From Beijerinckiaceae bacterium (GTDB lineage Bacteria > Pseudomonadota > Alphaproteobacteria > Rhizobiales > Beijerinckiaceae): a stretch of DNA of 64,000 nt. Made by a program: the position numbers and the translations under genes. Where the stretch lies: contig JAIETL010000003.1 in assembly GCA_019745195.1 (NCBI GenBank), positions 1-64,000 of the forward strand, given 5' to 3'. The notes below the pieces were generated by a model. The model was not told the origin of the DNA. It made no database searches and was given only the letters and a program-made list of their open reading frames with translations. Of this stretch, positions 1,750 through 18,783 are shown piece after piece; position 1 is the stretch's first letter; each line of letters opens with the position of its first letter.

Positions 1750-2154
1750 ATGACCGATGACGACGATGACGCGCCGGCTTTGCCGGCCGCGAAGGGCAAG
1801 CGCTTGGCCGTTGGCCGCAAGGCCGTGGTGTCCAAGCTCTGGCGCGCTGCGAAGCGGCAGCTTGAGGCGCATGAGGCGCGGCTCGACGAACGGCCGAAGG
1901 GCGCGGCCGCCGCCGAAGCCGACGCCAAGGCGCTGGCGGTGCTCGCCCGCACGGTGCGCGAACTCGTCGCGCTGGACGGGGCGGCTGCGAGCCAGGAGGG
2001 CAGATCGACCGATGAACTCTCGCCTGCTGCTGGACTGCGCCATGTTGCGGAGCTTCGCAACGAGCTTGCGCGACGTCTTGAAGTCCTTGCCGCCGAACAG
2101 GCGGATTCCGCTTCTCAGGCAGCTTCTGCCGATAGCGACGGCGGATCAGATTGA
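1750..2154 (+). CDS. GTA g1-like protein, probable small terminase subunit
   Basis: A 134-residue protein at the position of g1 in RcGTA-type clusters, immediately before the large terminase. It has an acidic N-terminus, a basic segment (KAVVSKLWRAAKRQLEAHEARL) and a predicted helical C-terminal half rich in Ala/Glu, compatible with a helix-turn-helix plus coiled-coil oligomerisation region as in small terminases. No strong family motif is visible, so the TerS role is inferred from gene order. The 3' end overlaps the proposed start of the terminase gene by 143 bases in another frame. A GAGG sits shortly before the ATG. Confidence 0.55.
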   Translation: MTDDDDDAPALPAAKGKRLAVGRKAVVSKLWRAAKRQLEAHEARLDERPKGAAAAEADAKALAVLARTVRELVALDGAAASQEGRSTDELSPAAGLRHVAELRNELARRLEVLAAEQADSASQAASADSDGGSD

Positions 2155-3391
2155 GGTCATCGAACGCGAGTGGCTGGTCTGGGCCCGTATCGACCAATTA
2201 CCGCCCGAAAGCGATGACTGGTCGATCTGGCTGGTGCTGGGCGGTCGCGGCGCGGGCAAGACCCGCACTGGAGCGGAATGGATCAAGGGCATGGCGCTGG
2301 GCTTGGCCGGTTTTGCTGACATGCCGGCCGGGCGCATCGCGCTGGTCGGCGAGACGCAAGGCCAGGTCCGCGATGTGATGATCGAGGGCGTCTCCGGGCT
2401 GCTCTCGATCCATACGCGCTGGGAGCGGCCGAGTTGGTATCCGTCGCGCCGGCGGCTCGAATGGCCTAACGGCGCGATCGGGCAGGTGTTCTCGGCCGAG
2501 GACCCGGAGGGGCTGCGCGGGCCGCAGTTCGCCGCCGCCTGGTCGGACGAATTGGCGAAATGGCCCAATCTTCAGGAGTGCTGGGACATGCTGCAGTTCG
2601 GTTTGCGGCTCGGCGACAGGCCGCGCCAGATCGTCACCACGACGCCGCGCCCGGTGCCGCTGCTCAAGCGGCTGCTGGCCGACAGCCATGTCGCGGTCAG
2701 CCGGGCCGCGACCGCAGCCAACCGCTACAATCTGGCGCCGGAGTTCATCCGCAACATTACCGAAACCTATGGCGGCACCCGGCTCGGCCGCCAGGAGATC
2801 GACGGCGAGATCGTCGAGGAAAGCGCCGACGCACTCTGGACGCGGGCGATGATCGAGAGCTGCCGCGAGACGGCTGCGTCGGGACTGGCGCGGATCGTCG
2901 TGGCGGTCGATCCTCCGGCTTCCTCCTCGGCGCGCGCCGATTCCTGCGGCCTCGTCGTCGCCGGCATCGATGGCGACGGCGTGGGGCATGTGCTGGAGGA
3001 CGGCACGATCGCAGGAGCGCGTCCGCATGAATGGGCGCAGAAGGCGATCGCGCTCTACCGGCGCTTCGAGGCCGACGCGCTCGTCGTTGAGGTCAACCAG
3101 GGCGGCGAGATGGCGACCTCCGTCATCCGCGAGGTCGATCCAGGAGTGCCGGTGACGGCGGTCAGGGCGACGCGCGGCAAATATCTCAGGGCCGAGCCGG
3201 TGGCGGCGCTCTACGCGCAGGGTCGGGTGCGCCATGCCGGCCGCTTCCCGCAGCTCGAGGACGAAATGTGCGATTTCGGACCGGCGGGGCTTAGCTCCGG
3301 CCGCTCGCCCGACCGGCTTGATGCGCTGGTCTGGGCGCTGACGCATCTGATGCTGATGGCGAAGGGACGGCCCCGCGTGAGGGGGATTTAG
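2012..3391 (+). CDS. GTA g2 large terminase (DNA-packaging ATPase/nuclease)
   Basis: Packages DNA into the GTA head. The ATPase half shows the Walker A motif LGGRGAGKTRTGAEW and the Walker B-type AAAWSDELAKW, followed by the coupling motif TTTPRP. The C-terminal nuclease half contains VAVDPPAS and later Asp/Glu residues (VVEVNQGGEM, SPDRLDALVWAL). Start 2012 was chosen because GGAGGG lies 11 bases upstream and gives about 459 residues, normal for GTA terminases. ATG at 2042 is an alternative that reduces the overlap with g1. The frame stays open much further upstream, but that region is Arg-rich antisense-like composition and reads better as g1. Confidence 0.92.
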   Translation: MNSRLLLDCAMLRSFATSLRDVLKSLPPNRRIPLLRQLLPIATADQIEVIEREWLVWARIDQLPPESDDWSIWLVLGGRGAGKTRTGAEWIKGMALGLAGFADMPAGRIALVGETQGQVRDVMIEGVSGLLSIHTRWERPSWYPSRRRLEWPNGAIGQVFSAEDPEGLRGPQFAAAWSDELAKWPNLQECWDMLQFGLRLGDRPRQIVTTTPRPVPLLKRLLADSHVAVSRAATAANRYNLAPEFIRNITETYGGTRLGRQEIDGEIVEESADALWTRAMIESCRETAASGLARIVVAVDPPASSSARADSCGLVVAGIDGDGVGHVLEDGTIAGARPHEWAQKAIALYRRFEADALVVEVNQGGEMATSVIREVDPGVPVTAVRATRGKYLRAEPVAALYAQGRVRHAGRFPQLEDEMCDFGPAGLSSGRSPDRLDALVWALTHLMLMAKGRPRVRGI

Positions 3392-3414
3392 ATCGCTACG
3401 CGTCGCGGCCATCC

Positions 3415-3492
3415 CCGTCTTTGCGAGCGCAGCGAAGCAATCCAGAGGGCGGCGCGAGACGCTGGATTGCTTCGCTGCGCTCGCAAAGACGG
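3415..3492. repeat. 31-bp perfect inverted repeat (Rhizobiales-type intergenic palindrome)
   Basis: Left arm 3415-3445 (beginning CCGTCTTTGCGAGCG) is a perfect reverse complement of right arm 3462-3492, with a 16-base loop. The arm resembles the dispersed TTGCGAGCGCAGCGAAGCAA palindromes seen between genes in many Rhizobiales genomes. It lies in the only sizeable gap of the GTA head module, between terminase and portal, where a transcript would form a very stable hairpin. Confidence 0.85.
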
Positions 3493-3558
3493 ATCACGAC
3501 ATCGCCCACGAGCTTCTCGGGCCACCCCGAGCCTGACGCACTCAACAGCGAGACAACC

Positions 3559-4737
3559 ATGCTCAGTTTCTTACGCAACCTGCGCGGCGTCGCCGCGCCG
3601 GCGCAAAAACGCTCGCGCGTCGGGCCGCTGATCGCGTTGCACGAGGCCGGGCGGCCGGTCTGGACGCCGCGTGATTATGCGGCGCTGGCCCGCGAGGGCT
3701 ATGAGCGCAACCCGGTCGTGCATCGCTGCGTGCGGCTGATCGCGGAGGCGGCGGCGCAGATGCCGCTCGCCGCCCGGGTCGGGACGCGCGAGGAGCCGGA
3801 CCATCCGGCGCTGGCGCTGATCGACCGGCCCAATCCGCGCCAGGGCGGTATCGCCTTTCGCGAGATGCTCTACGGCCATCTGCTCGTCGCCGGCAACGCC
3901 TATGTCGAGGCCGCGAGCGTCGGCGCCGAGCCGCGCGAGCTTTATGCGCTGCGGCCGGACCGGATGCGCGTCGTGCCCGGCCGCGACGGCTGGCCCGAGG
4001 CCTATGACTACACGGTCGGCGGCGACACGGTGCGCTTCCGGCAGGACGAGGGTAGCCTCCCGCCGATCCTGCATCTGACGCTGTTCCATCCGGTCGACGA
4101 TCATTACGGGCTCTCGCCGATCGAGGCGGCGGCCTGCTCGCTCGACATCCACAACGCCGCCAGCCACTGGCACAAGGCGCTGCTCGACAATGCGGCCAGG
4201 CCTTCGGGCGCGCTGGTCTATGACGGGCCGGACGGAGCGAGCCTGACCGAGGCGCAGTTCGAGCGGCTGAAGGGCGAGCTTGAGGAGAGTTTCCAGGGCG
4301 CGCGCAATGCCGGCCGGCCGCTGCTGCTGGAGGGCGGGCTCGACTGGAAGCCGCTCTCGCTGACGCCGGCGGAACTGGATTTCGTTGCGGCCAAAGGCGT
4401 CGCGGCGCGCGAGATCGCGCTCGCCTTCGGCGTGCCGCCGCTGCTGCTCGGGCTGCCCGGCGACAACACCCACGCCAATTTCGCCGAGGCCAACCGCGCC
4501 TTCTGGCGTCAGACCGCGATCCCGCTGGTCAGGCGCACGGCGCAGTCGCTGGCGCAATGGCTCGGCCCGGCGTTTGGCGATGCGCTCACGTTGGAGCCCG
4601 ATCTCGATGCCATCGAGGCGCTGGCCGAGGAGCGGGAATCGCTCTGGCGGCGGGTCGGAGCGGCCGACTTCCTGAGCGCCGATGAGAAACGCGAGGCCGT
4701 CGGCTATGGCCGCGCCGAGACGGAGGCCGCGCCATGA
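3559..4737 (+). CDS. GTA g3 portal protein (HK97 family)
   Basis: About 392 residues; forms the dodecameric portal at the head vertex. Typical HK97-family portal features are present: an N-terminal RNPVVHRCVRLIAEAAAQMP segment, the FHPVDDHYGLSPIEAA motif, and LAFGVPPLLLGLPGDNTHAN in the C-terminal half. ATG 3559 is preferred over upstream in-frame codons because the sequence before it belongs to the inverted repeat. The stop overlaps the start of the next gene by ATGA, so translation is coupled. Confidence 0.93.
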   Translation: MLSFLRNLRGVAAPAQKRSRVGPLIALHEAGRPVWTPRDYAALAREGYERNPVVHRCVRLIAEAAAQMPLAARVGTREEPDHPALALIDRPNPRQGGIAFREMLYGHLLVAGNAYVEAASVGAEPRELYALRPDRMRVVPGRDGWPEAYDYTVGGDTVRFRQDEGSLPPILHLTLFHPVDDHYGLSPIEAAACSLDIHNAASHWHKALLDNAARPSGALVYDGPDGASLTEAQFERLKGELEESFQGARNAGRPLLLEGGLDWKPLSLTPAELDFVAAKGVAAREIALAFGVPPLLLGLPGDNTHANFAEANRAFWRQTAIPLVRRTAQSLAQWLGPAFGDALTLEPDLDAIEALAEERESLWRRVGAADFLSADEKREAVGYGRAETEAAP

Positions 4738-4934
4738 ACGCGCTCGACCAGATCCTGACCAGCTTCGTGGGCAAGGGCGATGTCGGCCATCTCGGCCTTT
4801 TGCTCTGGGCGGCGGCCGCCTCCGGCCTCGCCTGGCTGATGCTGCGCGAGCTGACGGCCGCCAACCGGCGCTTCGACGATTTCGTCCGCGAGCTGAACCG
4901 CTTCAACGCACGACATGAAGAGGAGAAACCATGA
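4734..4934 (+). CDS. GTA g3.5-like small membrane protein
   Basis: A 66-residue protein with one hydrophobic segment around residues 19-36 (HLGLLLWAAAASGLAWLML) and a charged C-terminus. It starts in an ATGA overlap with the portal stop and occupies the slot called g3.5 in RcGTA. Its role in particle production is not known to me. Gene order and coupling make it a real gene. Confidence 0.75.
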   Translation: MNALDQILTSFVGKGDVGHLGLLLWAAAASGLAWLMLRELTAANRRFDDFVRELNRFNARHEEEKP

Positions 4935-5101
4935 CCCGATCTGGCGACAAGCGGGCTCCCGCCGGCAGGGGGCCGCAAGCCTCCAAGCCGACGCCGAGGC
5001 CGGGAGCGGGCGCATCGCCCGCGGCGACCTTCGGGCGCTTCCTCGGCACGCTGGCGCGGCTCGAAGGCCGCAACGGCAAGGCCGGGGAGGGCGGCCGATG
5101 A
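4931..5101 (+). CDS. small basic ORF between g3.5 and prohead protease
   Basis: A 56-residue open frame beginning MTRSGDKRAPAGRG and ending in a Leu/Arg segment (ATFGRFLGTLARLEG). It has a GGAG ribosome-binding site and is linked by ATGA overlaps at both ends: with g3.5 upstream (4931-4934) and with the protease start downstream (5098-5101). Such double coupling suggests it is translated. It is Pro/Gly/Arg-rich and basic. No family is recognised; it may be a small head-assembly or DNA-binding factor, or simply a translational bridge to the protease. Confidence 0.6.
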   Translation: MTRSGDKRAPAGRGPQASKPTPRPGAGASPAATFGRFLGTLARLEGRNGKAGEGGR

Positions 5102-5619
5102 GGGCGGCTCTTGCGACCGGCCCCTTCGCCCGCGAGACGAAATATCTGCCCCTGCCGCCGGCACGGATCAGGCCGGACGGCCTGTTCGAGGGCTATGCGA
5201 GCCTGTTCCGCATCGCCGATCTCGGCAAGGACATCGTCGAGCCCGGCGCCTTTCGCGAGAGCCTGGTCCGGCGCGGGCCGGCCGGAATCAAGCTGCTCTG
5301 GCAGCATGATCCGGCCGAACCGCTCGGGCGTTGGCTCAGCCTGATCGAGGATTCGCGCGGGCTCTTCGTCAGGGGCCAGCTCTCGCTGGCCGTCGCGCGG
5401 GCCCGCGAAATCCATGCGCTGATGCGTGAGGGCGCGGTCGACGGGCTCTCGATCGGTTTCCGGCCGGAAAAGGCCCGCACCGAGCCGCGCACCGGCTATC
5501 GCCGGCTCGAACGCGTCGATCTCTGGGAAATCTCGCTCGTCACCTTCCCGATGCTGCCGCAGGCCCGCGTCTCCGCCGTCAAGGCGCTGCCGGGCGCGGC
5601 CGCCCTTCTTCATGCCTGA
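5098..5619 (+). CDS. GTA g4 prohead protease (HK97 family, S78-like)
   Basis: About 173 residues; cleaves the N-terminal scaffold part of the capsid protein during head maturation. Recognisable family signatures are FEGYASLFRIADLGKDIVEPGAF near the N-terminus, the catalytic-His segment IKLLWQHDPAEPLGRW, and the Ser-containing VDGLSIGFRP, then LWEISLVTFPM near the end. The start at 5098 overlaps the preceding small ORF by ATGA, and longer in-frame starts would run into g3.5. Confidence 0.93.
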   Translation: MRAALATGPFARETKYLPLPPARIRPDGLFEGYASLFRIADLGKDIVEPGAFRESLVRRGPAGIKLLWQHDPAEPLGRWLSLIEDSRGLFVRGQLSLAVARAREIHALMREGAVDGLSIGFRPEKARTEPRTGYRRLERVDLWEISLVTFPMLPQARVSAVKALPGAAALLHA

Positions 5620-5644
5620 CCACCCTTTCACAGCAGGAGAGACC

Positions 5645-6883
5645 ATGACCACGCTGCTTCACGCACCCGAGACGAAATCCGCCGGGCTCGATCCGGCCCA
5701 GGACGATCTGCGCTACTCATTCGAGAGCTACCGCCTCGCCAATGACGAACGCCTGGCCGAGATCGAGAGCCGGGGTTCGGCCGATCCGCTGCTCGACGAG
5801 AAGGTGGCGCGCATCGATGCGTCGCTGGACGAAACCAGGCGCCGGATCGACCGCGTCGCGCTCGACCGCGCCCGCCCGGCGCTCGGCCAGGACGGCCTGC
5901 GCGATCCGCTCAGCCACGAGCACAAGGCCGCCTTTGTTTCCTATATCCGCAGCGGCGAGGCCGGCGGGCTGAAACGCCTCGAGGCCAAGGCGCTGTCGGC
6001 CGGCTCCGGCCCGGATGGCGGCTATCTCGCGCCCTCGACGATCGAGGCCGAAATCCTGCGCCGGCTGGCGACGATCTCGCCGATCCGCGCGATCGCCACG
6101 GTGCGGACGATCTCGTCGGGCTCCTACAAGAAGGCGTTCTCGACCACGGGCCCGGCCTCGGGCTGGGTCGCGGAAGCCGCCGCCCGGCCGCAAAGCAATT
6201 CGCCGACGCTGGCCGAATTGTCCTTCCCGGCGATGGAGCTCTACGCCATGCCGGCGGCGACCCAGACCCTCCTCGACGACGCGATCGTCAATATCGACCA
6301 GTGGATCGCCGAGGAGGTCGAGGCCGCCTTCGCCGAGCAGGAGGGCGCGGCCTTCGTCTCCGGTGACGGCATCGACAAGCCCAAGGGCTTCCTGGCCTAT
6401 CCGACGGTGGCCGATGCGAGCTGGAGCTGGGGCAATATCGGCGTGCTGAACTCAGGTGTCGCCGGCGCCTTCGCAGCCTCGAATCCGTCTGACATCCTGG
6501 TCGATCTGGTCTATGCGCTGAAGGCCGGTTACCGCCAGAACGCCGCTTTCGTGATGAACCGGAAGACGCAGGCCGTCATCCGCAAGTTCAAGGACGCCAA
6601 CGGCAATTATCTCTGGCAGCCCCCGGCCTCGGCCGGCGCGCCGGCGACGCTGCTGGGCTTCCCGCTGGTCGAGGCGGAAGACATGCCCAACATCGCCAAC
6701 AACGCGGTCTCCGTCGCATTCGGCGATTTCCGGCGCGGCTATCTCGTGGTCGACCGGGCGGGTGTGCGCATCCTGCGCGATCCCTACTCCGCCAAGCCCT
6801 ATGTGCTGTTCTACACGACCAAGCATGTCGGCGGCGGCGTGCAGGATTTCGCCGCGATCAAGGGGCTGAAGTTCGCGGTCTGA
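5645..6883 (+). CDS. GTA g5 major capsid protein (HK97 fold)
   Basis: About 412 residues. The N-terminal 110 or so residues are charged and helical (LLDEKVARIDASLDETRRRI), as expected for the delta/scaffold domain removed by the g4 protease. The HK97 core follows with GGYLAPSTIEAEIL, then QWIAEEVEAAFAEQEGAAFV and GDGIDKPKGFL, and it ends with FGDFRRGYLVVDRAG and a typical C-terminus. AGGAG sits just before ATG 5645. Only eight bases separate its stop from the stop of the convergent protease gene. Confidence 0.95.
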   Translation: MTTLLHAPETKSAGLDPAQDDLRYSFESYRLANDERLAEIESRGSADPLLDEKVARIDASLDETRRRIDRVALDRARPALGQDGLRDPLSHEHKAAFVSYIRSGEAGGLKRLEAKALSAGSGPDGGYLAPSTIEAEILRRLATISPIRAIATVRTISSGSYKKAFSTTGPASGWVAEAAARPQSNSPTLAELSFPAMELYAMPAATQTLLDDAIVNIDQWIAEEVEAAFAEQEGAAFVSGDGIDKPKGFLAYPTVADASWSWGNIGVLNSGVAGAFAASNPSDILVDLVYALKAGYRQNAAFVMNRKTQAVIRKFKDANGNYLWQPPASAGAPATLLGFPLVEAEDMPNIANNAVSVAFGDFRRGYLVVDRAGVRILRDPYSAKPYVLFYTTKHVGGGVQDFAAIKGLKFAV

Positions 6884-6891
6884 GCCACAGC

Positions 6892-7731
6892 TCAGCGCGA
6901 GAACCACCAGCTGTAGCCGGCCTGGGGCGGCTCGGGTTCGCCCCGGCGTCCGTCCGCCCCGAAGGCCAGCAGGCGCTGGCTCGCCTCGGTGATCCAGCCG
7001 CGATGGTCGCTGATCGGCGTGATCGCGGTGAAGCCGCCGCAGATGCGCCGGACACGCGAGTTCAAAGGTCCGCTCGACCAGCTCACCACGCCGACGAGAT
7101 CGCGCGAGGAGGCAGGGCCGCGCAGGACGGGCCCGCCCGAATCGCCGCGGCAGGCTCCCGCTCCGGGGCTTTCGCCGCGCGCCTCGACATCGACCGCGAC
7201 CTTGACCGTATTGGCGGTGGTGTAGCTGCCGGCATTGACGAGCCGCGTCTCGCGCAGGCGGCGCGCGGTGCCCTTGTTGTCCTCGATGGCGAGACCGTAG
7301 CCCGCCATGGTGACGGTCTCGCCCTGCCAGAGCCCGCCGCCGAGCGTCAGCGGTTCGATGTCGCGCGGGAGCGCCGAAACCAGCCGCAGAATCGCCAGAT
7401 CGGCTCCAGGCTGTGTGCGCGGCGTCGTGCCTGGCACGAAGCTCGGATGCGGCAGCACGGCAGCGACCGAATGGCGGCGCGCCTTGAAGCGAGGATCGAG
7501 GCTGACCACGCTGACCGCACCGCCGCCCATCAGACAATGCGCGGCGGTGATCACGAGTTCGGGCGCGATCGCCGCGCCCGAGCAGAGTTCGCCGCGGCTG
7601 GTCTCGACCCTTAGCGTCGAGGCGCGCGCGCCGTTGATGTCACGCGAAACGCTGCCGCCGACGACCGCGAGAGCGGGCGAGGCGGCGCCGAGGGCGGCGA
7701 TGAGAGCGAGCGTGACAGCGCGTACGGACAT
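6892..7731 (-). CDS. secreted chymotrypsin-fold (S1) serine protease, copy 1
   Basis: A 279-residue exported protease. A signal peptide ends in PALA at about residue 22, followed directly by VVGG, the neo-N-terminus seen in active trypsin-like enzymes. The triad is visible: His in ITAAHC, Asp in GADLAILRL, Ser in CRGDSGGP. Position 189 (six residues before the Ser) is Gly rather than the Asp of trypsin, so Arg/Lys specificity is not expected. It lies antisense inside the GTA cluster between capsid and g6, in tandem with a paralogue, with 64 bases between them. Neither is a known GTA component. It may be a cargo or moron gene or a host gene inserted in the cluster. Confidence 0.88.
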   Translation of the reverse strand: MSVRAVTLALIAALGAASPALAVVGGSVSRDINGARASTLRVETSRGELCSGAAIAPELVITAAHCLMGGGAVSVVSLDPRFKARRHSVAAVLPHPSFVPGTTPRTQPGADLAILRLVSALPRDIEPLTLGGGLWQGETVTMAGYGLAIEDNKGTARRLRETRLVNAGSYTTANTVKVAVDVEARGESPGAGACRGDSGGPVLRGPASSRDLVGVVSWSSGPLNSRVRRICGGFTAITPISDHRGWITEASQRLLAFGADGRRGEPEPPQAGYSWWFSR

Positions 7732-7795
7732 GTCTGGGACCAGGTGGCGTTGTGCTTCAATCTATGGCTTGCCGCGCCGCAGTCCAGTCTTTCGA

Positions 7796-8575
7796 TCAGC
7801 GGCCGATCGTCCATGTCGCGCTCTCGCTCCATTGTGACAGGGTGCGGTCGATCCAATTGCGTTGCGGCGCGACCAGCACGCCCTGGCTGAGCAGGCCGCA
7901 ACTCTTGCCCGACGGGCCTGTCGACCAGCTCGTGACGGCGACGACGCCGCCGCCATCTGTGAGCATCGGCCCACCGGAATCGCCCTGGCAGGCGCTGCCT
8001 CCGGGACGCCTGCCGAGCCCCGAAGGATCGGCGGCCCAGAGCAGGATGCGGCCCGGCCCGTAGGGCTCGACCGCCACGAGATCGGCCGAGCGATAGGTCC
8101 CGGTGGTGCGCGCATCGCCTTCGCGGGCGACGCCGTAGCCGGCGAGCGCAAGGTCTGAACCGGCGCGCGGCAGCGCGCCATCGACGAGGTTCGCCGGCTG
8201 GAAGCGCGCCGGCAGCGGCGCCGACAGACGCAGCAAGGCGAGATCGATCGAGCGGCGGCGGGCGGTGATCGCCTTGGCGTGGAACTCGGGATGGAGCGCG
8301 ATCGTGGCCGGCGGGATCAGCACCGGCTCGCCGGAGCCGTCTTTCCAGTGGATGCGCAGCTCGGTTCCTCCCGAAGCGCAATGCGCCGCCGTCAGGATGG
8401 CGCGCGACGACAGGACGATGCCGGTGCAGACGCCGCCGCGCGCGTTCAGGACCATCAGCGTCGAGGCCGCGGCCGGGCCGCCTTCGCGTCCGCCGACGAC
8501 CGCTGACGCCTTTTGCGATGCGAGCGCGCCGGCGAAAGCCAACGCCGAGACAACGATCCGAAATCCGACGTGCAT
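7796..8575 (-). CDS. secreted chymotrypsin-fold (S1) serine protease, copy 2
   Basis: About 259 residues, paralogous to the protease at 6892-7731 and upstream of it on the minus strand. The signal peptide ends KASA and is followed at once by VVGG. Catalytic residues: His in LTAAHC, Asp in IDLALLRL, Ser in CQGDSGGP. Residue 189 is Ser, as in chymotrypsin. ATG 8575 has GAGGAG six bases upstream, which fixes the start; a longer in-frame start would lose the signal peptide position. The two genes probably form an operon transcribed against the GTA genes. Promoter space is only the roughly 75 bp shared with g6. Confidence 0.88.
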   Translation of the reverse strand: MHVGFRIVVSALAFAGALASQKASAVVGGREGGPAAASTLMVLNARGGVCTGIVLSSRAILTAAHCASGGTELRIHWKDGSGEPVLIPPATIALHPEFHAKAITARRRSIDLALLRLSAPLPARFQPANLVDGALPRAGSDLALAGYGVAREGDARTTGTYRSADLVAVEPYGPGRILLWAADPSGLGRRPGGSACQGDSGGPMLTDGGGVVAVTSWSTGPSGKSCGLLSQGVLVAPQRNWIDRTLSQWSESATWTIGR

Positions 8576-8649
8576 CACGCGCTCCTCGCGACGGGAGCCG
8601 CTGGATAGCGCGTCGCAGCCCAGAGTTGAACCCGCAATCGGAGCGACCC

Positions 8650-9219
8650 ATGACGCCCATCGCGCTGACCCCACCTATGGCCGAGCCGGTCTCGCTGACC
8701 GACGCCCGCCTGTTCCTGCGCCTCGACCAGAATGAGGAGGACGGGCTGCTCGGCACGCTCATCACCGCCGCGCGGCTGATGATCGAGGCCGCGTCCGGCC
8801 GCATGCTGATCGACCAGGACTGGCGCATCGTGCTCGACCGCTGGCCGGACGGCGGCGAAATCCGCCTGCCGCTGTCTCCGGTTCGCTCGATCAAGGCCGC
8901 CCGCGTCTATGACGCGCAAGGGGGCGCCCAAAGCGTGGCGACTGGCGCGCTTGCGCTCGATGGCAGCGCCGATCCGCCGGTGATCCGGTTGGTCGGGGCC
9001 GTTCCGGTCATCGGCCGGAAGCGCGGCGCGATCGAGATCGACATCGTCGCCGGATATGGCGACACGGCGGCCGCCGTGCCGGCCCTGCTGCGTCAGGCCG
9101 TGCTGCGGCTGGCGGCGCGCTGGTTCGAGGAGCGCGGCGATGTCGTCGGCCGCGATGCGGCGGCGCTGCCGGCCGAGATCATGGCGCTGGTCGCGCCGTT
9201 CCGCCGCATGAGGCTGTGA
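8650..9219 (+). CDS. GTA g6 head-tail connector (phiE125 gp8-like)
   Basis: About 189 residues. It shows the family pattern of SLTDARLFLRLDQNEEDGLL at the N-terminus, then AARLMIEAASGRML and a C-terminal VPALLRQAVLRLAARWFEERG helix. These proteins form the adaptor ring below the portal. ATG 8650 follows a weak GGAGCGA. It is the first GTA gene after the protease insertion and is separated from the capsid gene by about 1.77 kb. Downstream, g7 starts four bases after its stop. Confidence 0.85.
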   Translation: MTPIALTPPMAEPVSLTDARLFLRLDQNEEDGLLGTLITAARLMIEAASGRMLIDQDWRIVLDRWPDGGEIRLPLSPVRSIKAARVYDAQGGAQSVATGALALDGSADPPVIRLVGAVPVIGRKRGAIEIDIVAGYGDTAAAVPALLRQAVLRLAARWFEERGDVVGRDAAALPAEIMALVAPFRRMRL

Positions 9220-9223
9220 CGCC

Positions 9224-9568
9224 ATGGCTGGTGCTGGAGACGGGAATGCCCCGATCGGCGCGCTGCGCCTGAGACTGGTGCTGGAAGGGCCGGTGGCGAC
9301 ACCCGACGGGATTGGCGGCGCGACGCAAACCTTCGAGACCGTGGCCGCCGTCTGGGGCCGGGTCGAATGGCTCGGCGGCGGCGAGCGTTGGCGCATGGGC
9401 CGGCCCGAGCAGGTCGCGACGCACCGCATCACGCTGCGCTGGCGCGCCGGCGTCGATACCGGCCAGAGGCTGCGCGATGGCGCGCGCCTCTACGACATTC
9501 GCGCCGTGGCCGATCCCGATGGCGGGCGGCGGCGTCTGGTCTGCCTGGTCGAGGAGAGTTCGCCATGA
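9224..9568 (+). CDS. GTA g7 head closure / head-tail adaptor protein
   Basis: A 114-residue protein of the SPP1 gp16 / HK97 gp10-like head-closure type: LRLRLVLEGPVATPDGIGGA, then AAVWGRVEWLGGGERWRMGRP and HRITLRWRAGVDTGQRLRDG, a characteristic beta-barrel pattern. It would close the connector and form the tail interface. Its stop overlaps the g8 start by ATGA. Confidence 0.85.
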   Translation: MAGAGDGNAPIGALRLRLVLEGPVATPDGIGGATQTFETVAAVWGRVEWLGGGERWRMGRPEQVATHRITLRWRAGVDTGQRLRDGARLYDIRAVADPDGGRRRLVCLVEESSP

Positions 9569-9975
9569 GCGATGCGATTCTGGCGCTTCGCGCGGCCATT
9601 CAGGCGCGGCTCGTCGCTGATGCTCCGCTGACCGCGCTGATCGGCGCAGGCCGTGTCCATGACGAGGCGCCGCGCGCCGCGCTCGGTGTCTATGTCGTCC
9701 ATGGCGAGGTGGACGCCCGCGACTGGTCGACGGGCTCCGACAAGGGCTGCGAACAGGATGTCTCGCTCGTCGTCTGGGCCGGCGAGAGCGCCTCCGCGAA
9801 ACAGGCGCTGCAGGCGGCGGCCTGCATCGTCGTCGCGCTCGACGATGCCGAACTGACGCTGCCCGGCCACCGGCTGATCAATCTGCGCTGGCAGGCGAGC
9901 CGGCTCGCCCGCGATCCCAAGACCGGGCTGCCCTTCGTCACGATCCGGCTGCGGGCCGTGACCGAGACGCTCTGA
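9565..9975 (+). CDS. GTA g8 tail completion/terminator protein (DUF3168)
   Basis: About 136 residues with DUF3168 features: LRAAIQARLVADAPLTALIG, the VYVVHGEVDARDWSTGSDKG segment, and a C-terminal VTIRLRAVTETL strand. The family caps the tail tube at the head-proximal end. The start lies within the ATGA overlap with g7; a longer in-frame opening upstream is antisense-like and rejected. Confidence 0.88.
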   Translation: MSDAILALRAAIQARLVADAPLTALIGAGRVHDEAPRAALGVYVVHGEVDARDWSTGSDKGCEQDVSLVVWAGESASAKQALQAAACIVVALDDAELTLPGHRLINLRWQASRLARDPKTGLPFVTIRLRAVTETL

Positions 9976-10006
9976 CCCATTTCCACATCATCGAAGGAGA
10001 GGCCGG

Positions 10007-10417
10007 ATGTCGGCACAGAAGGGCAAGGATCTGCTGCTCAAGGCGGCGGATGCGGGCGGGGCTTTCGTCACCGTCGCGGGGCTGCGCGCCCGCCAGATCG
10101 CGTTCAACGCCGAGAGCGTCGACGTGACCCATGCCGAGTCCGCCGGGCGCTGGCGCGAACTGCTTGCCGGGGCCGGCGCGCGCCGCGCCAGCATCAGCGG
10201 GGCGGGTGTCTTCAAGGACGAGGCGTCAGACGCGCTGCTGCGGCAGATATTCTTCGACGGCGTGATCCGGGACTGGCAGGTGATCGTGCCCGATTTCGGC
10301 ACCATCGCCGGGCCGTTCCAGATCACCAGCCTCGAATATCGCGGCGACCACGCCGCCGAAGTGACGTTCGAGCTGTCGTTGGATTCGGCGGGTGCGCTCG
10401 CCTTCACGGTGCTGTGA
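10007..10417 (+). CDS. GTA g9 major tail protein (TP901-1-like)
   Basis: A 136-residue tail-tube subunit. Recognisable segments are GKDLLLKAADAGGAFVTVAG, then FNAESVDVTHAESAGRWREL and FELSLDSAGALAFTVL at the end, as in the phage major tail protein family. GGAGAGG precedes the ATG. It stacks into the flexible tail tube around the tape measure protein. Confidence 0.9.
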   Translation: MSAQKGKDLLLKAADAGGAFVTVAGLRARQIAFNAESVDVTHAESAGRWRELLAGAGARRASISGAGVFKDEASDALLRQIFFDGVIRDWQVIVPDFGTIAGPFQITSLEYRGDHAAEVTFELSLDSAGALAFTVL

Positions 10418-10427
10418 GGAGCCGGCG

Positions 10428-10784
10428 ATGAGCAACCGCTACCGGGGCGAGACAGCTTTGATGGTCGACGGCCAGCCACTGCCGATGCGTTTGACGCTGG
10501 GCGCGCTCGCCGAGTTGGAGCAGGCTTTTTCCGTCGACAGCCTGCCGGCGCTGGGCGAGCGCTTCGTTGGCGGCAGGCTCTCGGCGCAGGATATCACCCG
10601 TATCTTGGGTGCCGGCCTCCGAGGGGCCGGCGGCAGTGTCAGTGACATCCAGGTTGCAGGGCTCGCCTTCGACGGCGGGCTCAACGGCGCGATCCAGGCC
10701 GCGATCGCGCTGCTCGACGCGACATTCGGCGAAGCAGGCGAGGGCGGGCAAGCCACGCGCCCTCCGCAGCCGCCGGCGCGCTGA
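10428..10784 (+). CDS. GTA g10 family protein (tail assembly chaperone, GTA_gp10)
   Basis: About 118 residues: NRYRGETALMVDGQPLPMRL, LTLGALAELEQAF, then GGRLSAQDITRILGAGLRGAG, matching the GTA gp10 family. By position, between tail tube and tape measure, it corresponds to the lambda gpG role, chaperoning tail assembly. The C-terminus is Gly/Pro-rich. The next chaperone-like gene lies in the -1 frame and has no conventional start (see the g10.1 entry). Confidence 0.85.
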   Translation: MSNRYRGETALMVDGQPLPMRLTLGALAELEQAFSVDSLPALGERFVGGRLSAQDITRILGAGLRGAGGSVSDIQVAGLAFDGGLNGAIQAAIALLDATFGEAGEGGQATRPPQPPAR

Positions 10785-10987
10785 CCCCGCCGGCGGCCGA
10801 GCCCTTTCCCTGGCGCGATGTGATGGCCTTCGGGTTGGGGCGTCTGTGCTGGACGCCCGAGACCTTCTGGGCCGCGACGCCGCGCGAGATCGCTGCGGCG
10901 CTGCGGGCGCATGAGCGCGCTTCGCCAAGTGGCGCGCCGGCCCGCGAGACGCTGTCGCGGCTTATGGCGGCCTTTCCCGACGCGTGA
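10781..10987 (+). CDS. GTA g10.1-like tail assembly chaperone part, no canonical start codon
   Basis: In the -1 frame relative to g10 there is a conserved-looking segment with FPWRDVMAFGLGRLCWTPE, TFWAATPREIAAALRAHE and a C-terminal LSRLMAAFPDA, typical of the small rcc01693-like GTA protein before the tape measure. The frame is open from 10646, but I find no ATG, GTG or TTG before the conserved FPW. The first are GTG 10820 and ATG 10823, inside the domain. Candidate initiations are CTG 10781, overlapping the g10 stop as CTGA, or a -1 ribosomal frameshift from g10 analogous to lambda gpG/gpGT. The start given here is the CTG and is provisional. Confidence 0.6.
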   Translation: MTPPAAEPFPWRDVMAFGLGRLCWTPETFWAATPREIAAALRAHERASPSGAPARETLSRLMAAFPDA

Positions 10988-11025
10988 CGCCGCTCACACA
11001 CTTCCATCAGGAGCTTTCGATCATC

Positions 11026-11655
11026 ATGGCCGACGATGATTTCACGGGCGAATCCGGTTCCGCTTCACGCTTTTCGGACCTGCGTTCGATGGACCGGCTG
11101 ACCAGGAGCCTGAGCAAATCGGCCGATGGCTTCGGCAAGGCGATCAGCAATGCCTTCGCCAAGGGCATCGTCGAGGGCAAGCGCTTCGAGGACGTGCTGC
11201 GCAACGTCGGCAAGTCGATCACGCAAGGCTTGCTCAAGACGGCGCTGCAGCCGCTGACCAGCGGCTTGTCGAGCCTGCTCACCACGGGCGTGACGAGCCT
11301 GACCGGGTTGTTCACGGGCGGGCTCTCCAGCCTCACTGGCCTGTCGGGCCTCGGCAAGGCGGCCGGGAGCATCTCGGTCGCGCCCTTCGCCGATGGCGGC
11401 GTGATCGCGCAGCCCTCCTATTTTCCGCTCGGGCGCGGGCTGGGGCTGATGGGCGAGGCCGGCGCGGAGGCGATCCTGCCCCTGTCGCGCGGACCGGACG
11501 GCAAGCTCGGCGTCAGCGCCGGCGGCGCGGCCGCACGCCCCATGAATGTCACCGTCCAGGTCTCGACCCCCGACGCCGACAGCTTCCGCCGTTCGGAGGC
11601 GCAGGTCTCGGCCGCGATCGCCCGGGCCGTGGCGCGCGGCAGCCGGGCTTTGTGA
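11026..11655 (+). CDS. GTA g11 tape measure protein
   Basis: About 209 residues, short as in RcGTA, which has a short tail. It contains helical SLSKSADGFGKAISNAFAKG and then GKRFEDVLRNVGKSITQGLL, a Gly/Leu/Ser-rich hydrophobic region, and the C-terminal FADGGVIAQPSYFPLG plus GLMGEAGAEAILPLSRG motif typical of phage tape measure tails. ATG 11026 follows AGGAG. An in-frame GTG at 10984, overlapping the g10.1 stop, would add 14 residues. Confidence 0.9.
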   Translation: MADDDFTGESGSASRFSDLRSMDRLTRSLSKSADGFGKAISNAFAKGIVEGKRFEDVLRNVGKSITQGLLKTALQPLTSGLSSLLTTGVTSLTGLFTGGLSSLTGLSGLGKAAGSISVAPFADGGVIAQPSYFPLGRGLGLMGEAGAEAILPLSRGPDGKLGVSAGGAAARPMNVTVQVSTPDADSFRRSEAQVSAAIARAVARGSRAL

Positions 11656-11674
11656 GCAGCGAGAGGGTAAGCCG

Positions 11675-12316
11675 ATGACCGATTTCCACGATATCCGCTT
11701 TCCGCTCGACATTTCGCGCGGCGCGCGCGGCGGGCCGGAGCGGCTGACGCAGGTCGTCACGCTGGCTTCGGGCCGCGAGGTCCGCAACAGCCGCTGGGCC
11801 CAATCGCGTCGGCGCTACGATGCCGGCGTCGGCGTCCGCACGCTGGATGCGCTCAGCGCCATCGTCGCCTTCTTCGAGGAGCGGCGCGGCCGGCTCCATG
11901 GCTTCAGATGGCGCGACCAGCTCGACTGGAAGAGCTGCCCGCCCTCGCAGACGCCGACAGCGCTCGACCAGACCATCGGCGTCGGCGACGGCGTCAACGC
12001 GACGTTCCAGCTCGCCAAGGATTACGGCACGGGCATCGCCACCTATCGGCGCGCCATCACCAAGCCATGGCATGGCGAGGTGAAGCTCGCCGTCGACGGC
12101 GTGGTTCAGCCGCAGCCGGGTCATGTCGCAACGAACGCCGCGACCGGCGTCGTCACCTTCGCGCCCGGCCATATCCCGCCGCCCGGCAGCCTGGTTACGG
12201 CCGGCTTCCTCTTCGATGTGCCGGTGCGCTTCGACATCGACGCGATCGAGGTCGATCTCTCGGCCTTCGAGGCTGGCGAGATCCCGCGCATCCCCGTCGT
12301 CGAGATCATTGCCTGA
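11675..12316 (+). CDS. GTA g12 distal tail protein (DUF2460)
   Basis: About 213 residues. DUF2460 signatures: DIRFPLDISRGARGGPE, RNSRWAQSRRRYDAG, then FFEERRGRLHGFRWRDQLDW, and a C-terminal VPVRFDIDAIEVDLSAFEAG. In the RcGTA particle this protein forms the distal tail ring connecting the tube to the hub. ATG 11675 is preceded by GAGAGGG. Confidence 0.92.
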   Translation: MTDFHDIRFPLDISRGARGGPERLTQVVTLASGREVRNSRWAQSRRRYDAGVGVRTLDALSAIVAFFEERRGRLHGFRWRDQLDWKSCPPSQTPTALDQTIGVGDGVNATFQLAKDYGTGIATYRRAITKPWHGEVKLAVDGVVQPQPGHVATNAATGVVTFAPGHIPPPGSLVTAGFLFDVPVRFDIDAIEVDLSAFEAGEIPRIPVVEIIA

Positions 12317-12326
12317 AGGAGTTTCC

Positions 12327-13205
12327 ATGCGCGACATTCCTGCCGGTCTCGCGGCCCATCTCGCGCGGGCCGCGACGACGCTCTGCCGCTGCTGGAGCCT
12401 GACCCGGCGCGACGGGCTGGTGCTCGGTTTCACCGACCATGACCGGCCGCTGGCCTTCGACGGCGTCACCTTTCAGGAGACGACCGGGCTGGAGGCAGCC
12501 GAGGGCGCGGCCGAACTCGGCTTCGCGGTCGGCGGGGGCGAGGTGTCTGGCGCTTTCGCGGCCGTGGGTCTCAATGAGGCCGATCTGGCGCGTGGGCTCT
12601 ATGACGACGCCCGCGTCTCGATCTGGCTGGTGAATTGGGCGGACGTCTCGGAGCGGCTGCTGCTCGAGACCGGCTTCGTCGGCGAAATCAAGCGCGGCGA
12701 CCTCGCCTTCAGCGCCGAGGTGCGGGGACTGGCGAAGGCCTTCGACGAGGAGCGCGGCCGGCTCTACACCCGCGCCTGCAACGCCGATCTCGGCGACGCC
12801 CGCTGCGGCGTGGCGCTTTCGCCCGTGGCGGGGACTGTGTCGACAACCGATGGCCGGCTTTCACTCGGCGCGCCGGCGCTCGCCCCCTTTCCCGATGCGC
12901 ATTTCAGCGGCGGGCGGCTGGTGTTCACCGGCGGCGGCAATGCCGGCTTCGTCACCGAGGTAAAGCGCCATGCCGCCGACGGCCTCGGCACGCTCCAGCT
13001 TTGGCAGGCCCCGCCGGCGCCGATCATGGTGGGCGACGCCCTTCAGGTCACGGCGGGCTGCGACAAGAGCTTCTCGACCTGCCGCACGAAGTTCGGAAAT
13101 GGAATCAACTTCCGCGGTTTTCCGCACATGCCCGGGAACGATTTCATCATCGGCGGCGTCGGGCCGGGCGATGGCGCGCTCGATGGCGGGAGTCTGTTCC
13201 GATGA
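12327..13205 (+). CDS. GTA g13 tail hub protein (DUF2163)
   Basis: About 292 residues. DUF2163 family: TLCRCWSLTRRDGLVLGFTD at the N-terminus, then FVGEIKRGDLAFSAEVRGL. Four cysteines in the C-terminal half are arranged as CNADLGDARC and later CDKSFSTC. This resembles lambda gpL-type hub proteins, in which cysteines bind an iron-sulfur cluster. It ends with FRGFPHMPGNDFIIGG. AAGGAG precedes the ATG, and the stop overlaps g14 by ATGA. Confidence 0.92.
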   Translation: MRDIPAGLAAHLARAATTLCRCWSLTRRDGLVLGFTDHDRPLAFDGVTFQETTGLEAAEGAAELGFAVGGGEVSGAFAAVGLNEADLARGLYDDARVSIWLVNWADVSERLLLETGFVGEIKRGDLAFSAEVRGLAKAFDEERGRLYTRACNADLGDARCGVALSPVAGTVSTTDGRLSLGAPALAPFPDAHFSGGRLVFTGGGNAGFVTEVKRHAADGLGTLQLWQAPPAPIMVGDALQVTAGCDKSFSTCRTKFGNGINFRGFPHMPGNDFIIGGVGPGDGALDGGSLFR

Positions 13206-13651
13206 GCGGGCCGGCGGTCACACGCGCCGACATCGTCTCGGCGGCCAACCACTGGCTCGGCACGCCCTATCATCACCAGGCCTCGCTGCGCGGGGTCGGC
13301 TGCGACTGCCTCGGCCTCGTGCGCGGGGTCTGGCGCGACTTGCATGGCGAGGAGCCCGAGCCCGTGCCAGCCTATTCGCCGCTCTGGGCCGAGAGCCTCG
13401 GCGAGGAGAGTTTGGCGGCAGCCGCTTTAAGGCATCTTCGTCCGGTTCCGCTCGACGCGGTCCGTCCCGGCGACGTGCTGCTGTTCCGCTGGCGCGCGCA
13501 CATCCCCGCCAAGCATTGCGCCATCCTGAGCGCGCCCGATCGCATCATCCACGCCCATGACGGAGCCTGCGTCGCCGAGGTCGCGCTGACGCCGTGGTGG
13601 CGGCGGCATCTCAGCCACGCCTTTTCCTTTCCGGAGGTTGCCGACCGATGA
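13202..13651 (+). CDS. GTA g14 NlpC/P60-type cell-wall peptidase
   Basis: About 149 residues. The catalytic Cys lies in GVGCDCLGLVRGVW, the first His in AKHCAILS and the following polar residue in RIIHAHDG, as in NlpC/P60 papain-like peptidases. Located at the tail tip, it is expected to open peptidoglycan during GTA DNA delivery. Translation is coupled to g13 and to g15 through ATGA overlaps (13202 and 13648). Confidence 0.92.
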   Translation: MSGPAVTRADIVSAANHWLGTPYHHQASLRGVGCDCLGLVRGVWRDLHGEEPEPVPAYSPLWAESLGEESLAAAALRHLRPVPLDAVRPGDVLLFRWRAHIPAKHCAILSAPDRIIHAHDGACVAEVALTPWWRRHLSHAFSFPEVADR

Positions 13652-16600
13652 GCACGCTCGTTCTCCAGGTCGCAGGGGCGGCGCTCGGTACGGCTCTGGG
13701 CGGGCCTTTCGGGGCCATTCTCGGCCAGGCCATCGGCGGCCTCGCCGGCGCGCAGATCGACCAGGCGCTGCTCAACAGCGGCGGCGGCAAGGCGATCGAG
13801 GGGCCGCGCCTGAAAGAGGCGGAGGGCCTCGCCTCGACCGAAGGGGCGGCGATCCCGCGCGTCTACGGCCGCGCACGGGTCGGCGGGCAATTGATCTGGG
13901 CGACGCGCTTCGAGGAGCAGATCAACGTCACCAAGAGCCGCGCCAAGGGCGGCGGCAAAAGCATGGGCGGCCAGAAGACGACCGAGACGACCTATAGTTA
14001 CTTCGCCAATCTCGCGGTCGGCCTCTGCGAGGGGCCGATCGCCTTCGTGCGGCGCGTCTGGGCCGACGGGCGCGAGCTCGACGTCTCGACTGTGACGATG
14101 CGGCTATGGGCCGGCTATGGGAACGAGGAACTCGATCCGCTCATCGCTGCGAAGGAGGCGGGCGAAGCCCCGGCCTATCGCGATACGGCCTATGTCGTAT
14201 TCGAGCGCTTTCCCCTGGCCGATTACGGCAACCGCGTGCCGCAATTCTCCTTCGAGGTGGTGCGCGGCGTCGATGGGCTCGGCAATATGGTGCGGGCCGT
14301 CACGCTGATCCCGGGCGCCGGCGAGTTCGTCTACGAGACGCGGCTCGTCAGCCACGAGCCCGAGCCCGGCGCGACCGAGAGTCTGACCCGCCACCAGCTT
14401 TTCGGCCCGGCCGATGCCGAGACCGCGCTGTTCCACCTCAAGGCGCTCTGCCCGAACCTTCGCCGCGTCGCGGTGGTGATCTCGTGGTTCGGCGACGATC
14501 TGCGCGCCGGCGCCTGCACCATCGCGCCGCGCGTCGAGATACCCCTCAAACCGACCATCGGAGCCGAGTGGTCGGTCGCCGGCCTGACCCGGCCGGTGGC
14601 GCGTGTCGTCAGCCAAATCGAGGGCCGTCCGGCCTTCGGCGGCACGCCCTCCGACGAGAGCGTCATCGCGCTGATCCGCCGGCTGCGCGACGTGCTGGGG
14701 CTTGAGGTTGTGCTCTACCCCTTCGTGATGATGGACATCCCCGGCGGAAACGAATTGCCGGACCCGGTCTCGGGTGCGGCCGGCCAGCCACGCTATCCCT
14801 GGCGCGGACGCATCACCTGCGACCCCGCGCCCGAAAGCGCAGGCAGCGTGGACGGTACGGGCGCGGCCGAGGCGCAGGTCGCAGCCTTTCTCGGCACGGT
14901 CGCGCCCGCCGATATGGGCCTCGTCGGCGATCAGGTGATCTGCGCGAAGCCCGACGAGTGGAGCTATCGCCGGCTCGTGATGCATTGCGCCGCGCTGGCG
15001 CAGGCCGCGGGCGGTGTCGCGGGCTTCGTGCTCGGCTCGGAACTGGTCGGGTTGACGCGGGTGCGTGGGGCGTCGGGCTATCCGATGGTCGACGGGCTGG
15101 TTTCGCTTGCCGGCGACGTCGAGACCATGCTGCCCGAGGCCAGGCTGACCTATGCCGCCGACTGGACGGAATACGGCGCGCATGTCCGCAATGGCGGGCA
15201 GGATGTGTCCTTTCCGCTCGACCCGCTCTGGGCCTCGCCGGCGATCGACGCCATCGGCATCGATTTTTATGCACCGCTCTCGGATTGGCGCGACACGAGC
15301 AGCCATCTTGACGCAGAGGTCGCGCGCGGGCCGAGCGATGTCGCCTATCTGCGCGGCAGGCTGAATTCCGGCGAGGCCTATGACTGGTACTATGCCGGCC
15401 CCGGCTGGCGCGAGGCGCAGCAGCGCCTGCCGATCACCGACGGAGCCTATGGCAAGCCCTGGGTCTTCCGACCCAAGGACCTGTGGAATTGGTGGAGCCA
15501 GCCGCATGTCGCGCGCAGCGGTGGCGTGGAAACGACGGCGACGGCCTATGTGCCGGGCTCCAAGCCGATCTGGCTGACGGAGGTCGGCGTTCCCGCCATC
15601 GACAAGGGCGGCAATGGGCCGAGCTTTTTCCCCGATCCGAAATCGGCCGATAGCGGCAGGCCTTACTTTTCCAGCGGCGCGCGCGACGATCTGGTGCAGC
15701 ATCGGGCGCTGGAGGCGATCCTGTCGGGTTTCGATCCGGCGCTGCCGGGCTTCGAGGCGAGCCGTAATCCGGTTCATCCGACCAGCGGCTTGCGCATGGT
15801 CGATCCGGCCTGCGTTTTCGTCTGGAGCTGGGATGCGCGGCCGTTTCCGGCCTTTCCGGAACTCACCGGGGCCTGGGCCGATGGCGCGAACTGGCAGACC
15901 GGCCACTGGATCAACGGCCGCATCGAAGGCGCGCCGGTCGATCGGCTGATCAAGGAGGTGCTGGCCGATCTCGGCCTGCCGGCCGCTGACGAGATCGTGG
16001 TCGACGGCTTCGTCGACGGTTATGTGCTCGACCGGCCGATGTCGGCGCGGCAGGCGCTGGAGCCGCTGGCGCAGGCCTTCGGCTTCGACGCCATCATGAG
16101 CGGCGGCCGGCTGGTGTTTCGCGGACGCGGCGGCAGGGTCGCGCGGGTGCTCGCAAGCGACGACTGGCTGCCCGGCCGCGACGGCAGCCCCTATGAACTG
16201 CGCCGCGCGCAGGAAACGGAACTGCCGCGAGAGCTGCGGCTCGGCTTCGCCGATGGCGACGCGACCTATCGCCGGGCCGCCGCCTCGTCGCGCCGTCTGG
16301 CCGGGGCGGCCCGGCGCGAAAGCGCGGTCGAGACCGCGATCGTGACCCGTGTGGCCGAAGGGCAGCGCCTCGCCGACCAGCGCTTGCAGGAAATCTGGTC
16401 GGGCCGCGAGACCGCCGAGTTCGAGCTCTCGCCGCGCCGCATCGATCTTGAGCCCGGCGACGTGGTGGCGTTGCCTGTCGATGGGGCGCAGCGCCTGTTC
16501 CGGTTGACGCGGATCAGCGATGGTCCGACCCGCAAGGCCAGTGCGCGCGCCGTGGAGCCCGCCGTCTACGCCAGCGCGGGCGCGCCCGTCGGGCCGATGC

Positions 16601-17963: not shown

Positions 17964-18022
17964 GCCTTATCCGGCTTTACCGAAAACTGTGCCGCGACCC
18001 GGCCAACTGGAGCTTGCCCACC

Positions 18023-18691: not shown

Positions 18692-18783
18692 CCGACATTG
18701 ACGAGTGAGCGCATGATGTCGTCCGAAACTCGCTCCCCGCACTTCGCTCACGCGGACCTTCGGTTCGCCATCGCGCTCCGGCG

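Follow-up and report, generated by a model that had tools for sequence, protein, structure and literature searches.

Why do two protease genes lie on the opposite strand in the middle of a GTA cluster, and do they belong to the GTA or to the host that carries it? The question is raised by the window, the whole stretch of 64,000 nucleotides from a Beijerinckiaceae bacterium that was analysed here, in which pA and pB, two antisense genes for S1 chymotrypsin-fold proteases, stand between the capsid gene g5 and the connector gene g6 of a complete RcGTA-type cluster (Table 1). An earlier note on this DNA had taken such genes to be absent from RcGTA clusters at this place and had suggested a cargo or moron module, a secreted competition or envelope-modifying system, or a control switch for the GTA. 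The answer bears on more than one locus: a GTA is regarded as a unit maintained for the exchange of genes, and here a foreign gene that once entered the middle of the structural cluster has persisted as long as several families have existed, while the surrounding GTA has been lost repeatedly.

Table 1. Features of the window discussed in the text, with positions and strands.
Feature	Position	Strand	Details
RcGTA-type structural cluster g1-g15	1750..17562	+	split by pA and pB
g5, HK97-type major capsid protein	5645..6883	+	TIGR01554 E 2.4e-123; PF05065 E 1.8e-92; adjoins pA side
pA, distal ('dn') S1 chymotrypsin-fold protease	6892..7731	-	279 aa; signal peptide; triad H65/D111/S198
pB, g6-proximal ('up') S1 chymotrypsin-fold protease	7796..8575	-	259 aa; signal peptide; triad H65/D111/S200
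Promoter-like block for pB	8604..8633	-	GGGTTCAA (8633-8626) + GCTATC (8609-8604), 16 nt apart, toward pB
g6, head-tail connector	8650..9219	+	PF05135 E 7.3e-9 (given from 8653); divergent from pB
3' flank: small ORF, response regulator, histidine kinase; CcmI/CcmF genes after	17643..20163	+	
Third Trypsin-family match	24804-25292	+	separate from pA/pB system

The two proteases and their GTA cluster

The coordinates and the Pfam Trypsin matches confirm two protease reading frames antisense between g5 and g6, and the pair does separate g1-g5 from g6-g15, as the earlier note had described. PF00089 is matched at E 6.6e-23 by pA and at E 1.6e-21 by pB, Trypsin and Trypsin_2 are the only Pfam domains in either protein, and in sequence searches both match solved S1 proteases. 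For pB the chymotrypsin fold is predicted by an AF2 model (mean pLDDT 84.8), which Foldseek assigns to elastase and trypsins with a probability of 1.00 and whose best PDB match by E-value is pancreatic elastase 1est (E 6.9e-13); for pA the same fold is predicted from Pfam and sequence. The stop codons of g5 and pA are separated by 8 bp, and on the other side 74 bp lie between pB and the ATG start codon of g6 at 8650 (77 bp if measured to the second g6 codon). The base composition at 6892-8575 does not depart from that of the surroundings.

The host cluster contains g2-g15 homologues in RcGTA order with GTA_TIM on g15 and thus belongs to the RcGTA type; it was matched against the g1-g15 order that we take to be that of RcGTA itself. 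Its products comprise the HK97-type portal and capsid, the g4 S78 prohead protease, the g6 connector, the g7 head completion protein, a TP901-1-type tail protein, an Rcc01695-family distal tail protein, the GTA hub protein and an NlpC/P60 peptidase, and g9, g12, g13, g14 and the GTA_TIM-bearing g15 were identified.

At other loci the 5' flank consists of genes for a penicillin-binding protein (PBP) and a CxxCxxCC protein, and the 3' flank of a small PepSY-like ORF, a response regulator, a histidine kinase and CcmI/E/F; this 3' flank presumably resembles the feuN-feuP-feuQ-cycH region of Sinorhizobium. The small ORF in the 3' flank of the window has a PepSY-like counterpart in locus L120. The usual 5' flank (PBP) was not seen in the window, the PBP match of this genome being on another contig, and an IS1595-type transposase gene (613-1536, minus strand), close to the end of the contig, immediately precedes the GTA cluster.

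Distribution of the proteases

A scan for relatives of g5 gave 80 named loci, the best 80 of 128, in which the protease was searched by tblastn. Among these best 80, two antisense proteases lie between g5 and g6 in 37, which come from Bosea and its close relatives, Microvirga, Enterovirga and Methylobacterium, and every locus from these four genera is found among the carriers. One protease is present in 8/80, including Camelimonas, Azorhizobium, Ancylobacter, Nitrobacter and Rhodopseudomonas, and none in 35/80, of which 29 have g5 and g6 and 6 end before g6. With one or two copies in 45 of the best 80 loci the proteases are not peculiar to this cluster; they occur at the g5/g6 junction in many Hyphomicrobiales genera and are missing from others.

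In an order-wide sample of 297 genomes a pB match (E 0.001) was found in 63, many of them weak, and a g5 match (1e-30) in 203. The sample of the window's own GTDB family (129 genomes) gave a pB match (1e-28) in 99, a g5 match (1e-60) in 80 and both in 73. The protease lies downstream of g5, antisense and within 2.7 kb, in 72 of these 73 genomes, and in the remaining one (G413) g5 and the protease are on two contigs. In all loci read pB stands next to g6, including those with other DNA inserted between g5 and pA.

No match of pB or pA was found by tblastn in 50,697 phage records, and PHROG gave one weak match (3e-5 for pA, 1.9e-4 for pB). IMG/VR gave 17 matches. Sixteen of them are GTA loci in which the protease adjoins g6, with g5 visible on its other side in 13 of the 16; the 17th (L205) is weak and shows no GTA gene. 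The suggestion of a cargo or moron module did not survive these searches. Listed there as 'viral', the 16 contigs (L189-L204) are GTA loci from Hyphomicrobiales that carry the protease, and their filing under viruses is probably an error.

Some loci were noted for their unusual arrangement. In L102 (G236) the GTA cluster is rearranged: it has three g5 matches, its g2 lies close to the protease, and it may be decaying or contain insertions. At G362:C4:5220-6354 and G355:C9:8048-9261 the g5 match is in two pieces and the adjacent protease match is a long open frame, possibly marking decaying GTAs. In one genome each of two genera (L171 at about 11111, L184 at about 3371) g11 lies between g3 and g2, away from g10/g12.

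One old gain and one loss

The history of the insertion was followed on trees of g3+g5+g9+g12, built from loci that have at least three of these genes. On the unrooted tree 59 of the 89 loci carry a protease and 30 lack it, and starred branches force both of the two changes that the protease label requires. A rooted tree of 93 rows has Rhodobacterales and Sphingomonadales as outgroup, namely two GTA loci on Paracoccus plasmids and one phage/GTA-like locus on a Sphingomonas plasmid; it likewise needs 2 changes and places the 59 carriers together with 5 protease-less rows in one starred clade (SH-aLRT 99) inside the protease-less GTAs. Both GTA trees and the pB tree described below are quick trees with SH-aLRT support only, and 24 near-identical loci and pieces of the window's own genome were left out of them; the dating did not use L080, whose distant single copy comes from a short contig and has a very long branch.

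The nested position of the carriers implies one gain and one loss, the latter in two related genera (numbered g5 and g159), and rooting strengthens the single gain. The five loci read from these two genera (L129, L165-L168) have the GTA genes through g15 and no protease. On the tree evidence we could show a single inferred entry of a pB-like gene, antisense between g5 and g6, in the ancestor of a large Hyphomicrobiales clade, after which the protease was apparently inherited with the GTA and lost once within the GTA tree. The insertion, which the earlier note had wished to date with a tree, is thereby placed in a distant ancestor on the GTA gene tree, and the note's view of the proteases as foreign to the canonical RcGTA cluster agrees with carriers nested among protease-less GTAs. 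A Shinella plasmid without protease has its GTA between the same flank genes (PBP and CxxCxxCC protein; response regulator and histidine kinase), so the chromosomal setting is older than the insertion.

Seen in a single genome, the foreign-looking pair on the wrong strand does suggest a recent cargo, a moron or a random insertion confined to the strain. This reading is refuted by the same place being occupied in many genera of several families and by the one old gain; with a base composition like that of the surroundings and no phage match besides, we give it virtually no probability.

A second protease copy was gained in some lineages (families f1, f20 and f50). In a careful protease tree of 88 rows the g6-proximal copies track the named groups. 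The distal copies fall into separate clades for the own family, f20 and f50, some of them on long branches, so that one or several duplications are possible.

Proteases at emptied GTA loci

The pB tree was scored for the presence of the GTA at the locus, with 65 positive and 36 negative states and two rows (L139 and L148) left unscored; 'GTA-negative' refers to the locus, and a Methylobacterium aquaticum plasmid locus was judged on that locus alone. Off-locus paralogues (L125-L128, L149, L161) and the partial L124 were left out. GTA presence changes 12 times by parsimony, at least 7 of the changes being forced by starred branches. As a tree alone cannot tell gain from loss, we read these changes as losses because of the flanks, the stubs and the constant order g5-protease-g6. 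Judged from sequence, we could thus show that the protease gene repeatedly stayed behind when the surrounding GTA genes disappeared.

The 3' flank genes also adjoin the protease in GTA-less genomes and so mark the emptied locus. Of the own-family genomes, 26 have a protease but lack a g5 match. In 21 of these 26 the protease adjoins genes that flank the GTA at other loci, with both flanks in view in 7/21; two have it elsewhere (L149, L161) and three keep other GTA genes (L139, L141, L152). L139 has g6 at the contig end and no g5 match on the other side, and L141 keeps g6-g15, with no g5 and 1.5 kb of contig beyond the protease. In each of the five protease-bearing genomes of family f50 two proteases and both flanks are present, and the locus has no GTA gene; GTA_TIM was not found in these five, and G150 has one capsid-like match to g5. 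The right flank lies beside the protease in two f20 genomes and at the M. aquaticum plasmid locus, and at L160 the gaps between the protease match and the two flank matches measure 52 bp and 291 bp.

Half-eroded loci show that the cluster can erode from either side. L157 retains the first 49 residues of g6 beside the protease and no other GTA gene. In L152 g6-g15 are kept, g5 is reduced to 39 C-terminal residues and no g1-g4 are found within 9 kb; its genome (G368) has no other g5 match at 1e-60. The opposite case is G319, in which g6-g15 and a piece of g2 remain at the locus and g3-g5 and the protease are gone; in G331 the protease is in two frames at the emptied locus (L206 and L211 are the loci of these two cases). 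The protease marks former GTA sites and provides a fixed reference point for counting GTA losses.

A different situation is found in genus g41 of family f36, which we take, as a guess, to be Bradyrhizobium-like. All eight large genomes carry a single protease away from the old locus, and in 7/8 the genes for PBP and response regulator share a contig, at a distance of 12-20 kb. The three such intervals that were read through (L130-L132) yielded no GTA gene, and the genus gave no strong GTA_TIM match.

Three of the 23 own-family genomes with a protease and no GTA at the locus have g11/g12-g15-like sets elsewhere: G218 (L162 and L163, two g11-g15 sets), G343 (L209) and G373 (L210). The sets of all three genomes are probably prophages like the LC elements described for Methylobacterium nodulans (PMC11409702). 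GTA_TIM open frames of about 620-890 aa, shorter kin of g15, were also seen in genomes without a g5 match (G298, G303, G318, G331, G335, G339, G354, G359, G361, G364, G376, G382, G387, G409, G411 and G412).

Selection, active site and export

In 17 Bosea-clade loci (16 for g2 and g12) the median dN/dS by NG86 is 0.27 for pA and 0.26 for pB, and for the GTA genes 0.24 (g2), 0.13 (g3), 0.20 (g5), 0.29 (g6), 0.12 (g9), 0.28 (g12) and 0.25 (g15). By this sequence measure pA and pB are under purifying selection in these loci, and the range of 0.12-0.29 in the seven GTA genes is compatible with a functional cluster. The protease dN/dS stays below 0.5 with or without the GTA. In 11 GTA-less sets the medians range over 0.06-0.45: 0.16 for f36/g41 (28 pairs), 0.23 and 0.31 for the up and down copies of f50 (10 pairs each), 0.28 for g133 and 0.23 and 0.09 for g160 (3 pairs each), and, with one pair each, 0.08 and 0.06 for f20, 0.45 and 0.29 for a Methylobacterium-like group and 0.22 for g130. 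The GTA-positive comparison gave 0.27 for f20 and 0.42 for the Methylobacterium-like group; synonymous differences have medians of 0.3-0.57 per site, and the small sets carry little weight.

The H, D, S triad is complete in 147/147 ORFs from the subset of loci examined for it, five of them off-locus paralogues. Together with the signal peptides and the dN/dS values this bears out the impression of the earlier note that both proteases look functional. Residue 189 of the S1 pocket is Gly in 123 of the 147 ORFs, Ser in 21, Ala in 2 and Thr in 1, with Gly in pA and Ser in pB of the window, at the position where trypsin has Asp. A trypsin proper with Arg/Lys specificity was thus rejected, as Asp189 is absent throughout, and the word 'trypsin' describes the fold of pA and pB and not their specificity. 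The Gly/Ser189 pocket, which is elastase/chymotrypsin-like, suggests a P1 preference for small or hydrophobic residues.

Chymotrypsin-fold enzymes need a free N-terminus at position 16, which orders the active site. In pA and pB the A-x-A of the signal peptide stands directly before VVGG, and among 142 on-locus ORFs a signal-peptidase-like motif, defined by sequence only, abuts the mature start in 138 by a loose and in 125 by a strict pattern; the four ORFs missing the loose pattern have the A-x-A and differ in the third mature residue. We therefore propose that the signal peptide would export pA and pB to the periplasm or outside the cell and that signal peptidase would cut at A-x-A directly before I/V16-V17-G18-G19. 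Cleavage at this point means that export itself would activate the enzyme by yielding the N-terminus that orders the active site, with no propeptide and no activating protease. The mature protease would then cut after small or hydrophobic residues and might serve the cell with or without a GTA.

Transcription across the insertion

The short gap before g6 contains a promoter-like block directed toward pB (Table 1). In 27 aligned Bosea-clade loci the inner element GATA[GC]CGC is present in 23/27 and the outer element TGAACC in 19/27 (near variant 26/27). In other families 30 loci were asked for and 27 upstreams obtained; TTGACA is directed toward pB in 15/27 and occurs in the other sense in 0/27 (shuffle mean 0.29, maximum 3). 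Nine of the 15 come from one genus (f20), so these rows are not independent, and three are GTA-less. A sigma-70 consensus scan of the pB-g6 gap gave no match, and the claim of a pB promoter therefore rests on conservation; pB may well have its own promoter in this gap. No separate g6 promoter was recognised. A bidirectional terminator at the g5 and pA stops was considered and rejected: the window has a short inverted repeat, but the junction varies from 4-123 bp and is unconserved in the 27 Bosea-clade loci.

For strains with a complete cluster this poses a direct question, namely how g6-g15 are transcribed past, or from within, two antisense genes. Transcription could read through 1.7 kb of antisense genes or start from a promoter inside pB. 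The control switch of the earlier note would make use of this arrangement, with transcription of pA/pB or the divergent pB-g6 gap separating g1-g5 from g6-g15 and regulating particles, and both the conserved block and the antisense orientation in 72/72 own-family genomes with both genes on one contig are in line with it. One gain followed by vertical descent already accounts for the constant orientation, however, selection acts at the protein level with intact triads, and the gene persists under selection at loci without a GTA to regulate, so that we consider a switch very unlikely.

Host proteases or GTA accessory

For the own family a tally over all 129 genomes, several of them incomplete assemblies, gave 77 genomes with both GTA and protease (73 plus G315, G322, G368 and G330), 8 with a GTA and no protease (7 plus G319), 23 with a protease and no GTA at the locus, one with a broken protease and no GTA (G331) and 19 with neither; G385, whose contig ends inside g7, was set aside. 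An intact protease is thus present in 77/85 GTA-positive versus 23/43 GTA-negative genomes (24/43 counting the broken copy), which indicates that the protease is often lost together with the GTA, and after this tally the idea that it is indispensable was abandoned. One deletion removing both explains the correlation without a shared function; a shared function would explain it too.

Such a function could be that of a GTA accessory: exported proteases might aid particle release or recipient entry by cutting envelope proteins and be kept in the cluster because they work with the GTA. Besides the tally, the constant place next to g6 and the requirement for LypA and LypC in GTA-mediated lysis (see below) speak for this. 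Yet the protease is under selection after at least 7 GTA disappearances, it is absent from 7 g5-positive genomes of two genera, with the GTA read through g15 in 5, the promoter-like block is opposed to the GTA, and LypA and LypC differ in architecture from pA and pB; we regard an accessory role as unlikely.

We consider it likely that pA and pB are exported, self-contained host proteases lodged in a GTA, and neither a part of it nor its cargo or switch. A role in secreted competition or at the envelope, as the earlier note had also suggested, may still apply to them. A further reading, an anti-GTA or anti-phage passenger in which the export-activated periplasmic protease guards its carrier against GTA or phage particles or the lysis of neighbours, seems quite unlikely to us. 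If true, it would mean that the protease pays with the GTA present and after its loss, and that the cluster erodes from both sides down to the protease. In themselves pA and pB are ordinary S1 proteases; the novelty lies in the history of these genes and in the way they can mark lost GTAs.

Comparison with known systems

The earlier note had considered that the same proteases might occur in many Rhizobiales with a described role. Many carriers were indeed found, but no role: the open-licence literature on GTAs, and on the protease in Bradyrhizobium, yielded no description of pA/pB-type genes. PADLOC gave weak matches only, to LmuA, Avs1b and RT-Protease_XI (8e-5 to 1.4e-2); we read them as the shared trypsin fold and rejected a known anti-phage system.

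With exported S1 peptidases pA and pB share the Pfam Trypsin domain, the H-D-S triad, GDSGG and the signal peptide, the predicted fold of pB being closest to pancreatic elastase; they differ in having no visible propeptide and no Asp189. The staphylococcal Spl proteases (SplB, SplF) require exact removal of the signal peptide for full activity, with no separate propeptide, and the paper calls their activation mechanism distinct from canonical chymotrypsin zymogen activation (PMC7926377). Signal-peptide removal as the activating step, as proposed for pA and pB, would be common to both, whereas the canonical I/V16 start is present in pA and pB.

Within the open-licence literature LypABC of Caulobacter is the closest published connection between trypsin-like peptidases and GTAs: GTA-mediated lysis requires LypA and LypC, which are peptidases of this kind (PMC13236601). 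LypABC is described there as a CARD-NLR-like system, LypA having CARD-like and ATPase domains and LypC an endonuclease domain. Trypsin-like peptidase domains tied to GTA biology are the common feature; LypA and LypC are multidomain, whereas pA and pB are single-domain proteins with signal peptides. A peptidase of the LypA/LypC type was rejected, as pA and pB have no CARD, ATPase or endonuclease domain.

The cluster around the proteases agrees with the RcGTA type in the order of g1-g15, the HK97 portal and capsid, the S78 protease, the Rcc01695-family protein, the hub, the NlpC/P60 peptidase and GTA_TIM on g15. It differs in the one or two antisense S1 genes that split g5 from g6 in this clade; the two Paracoccus GTA loci used for comparison have no protease.
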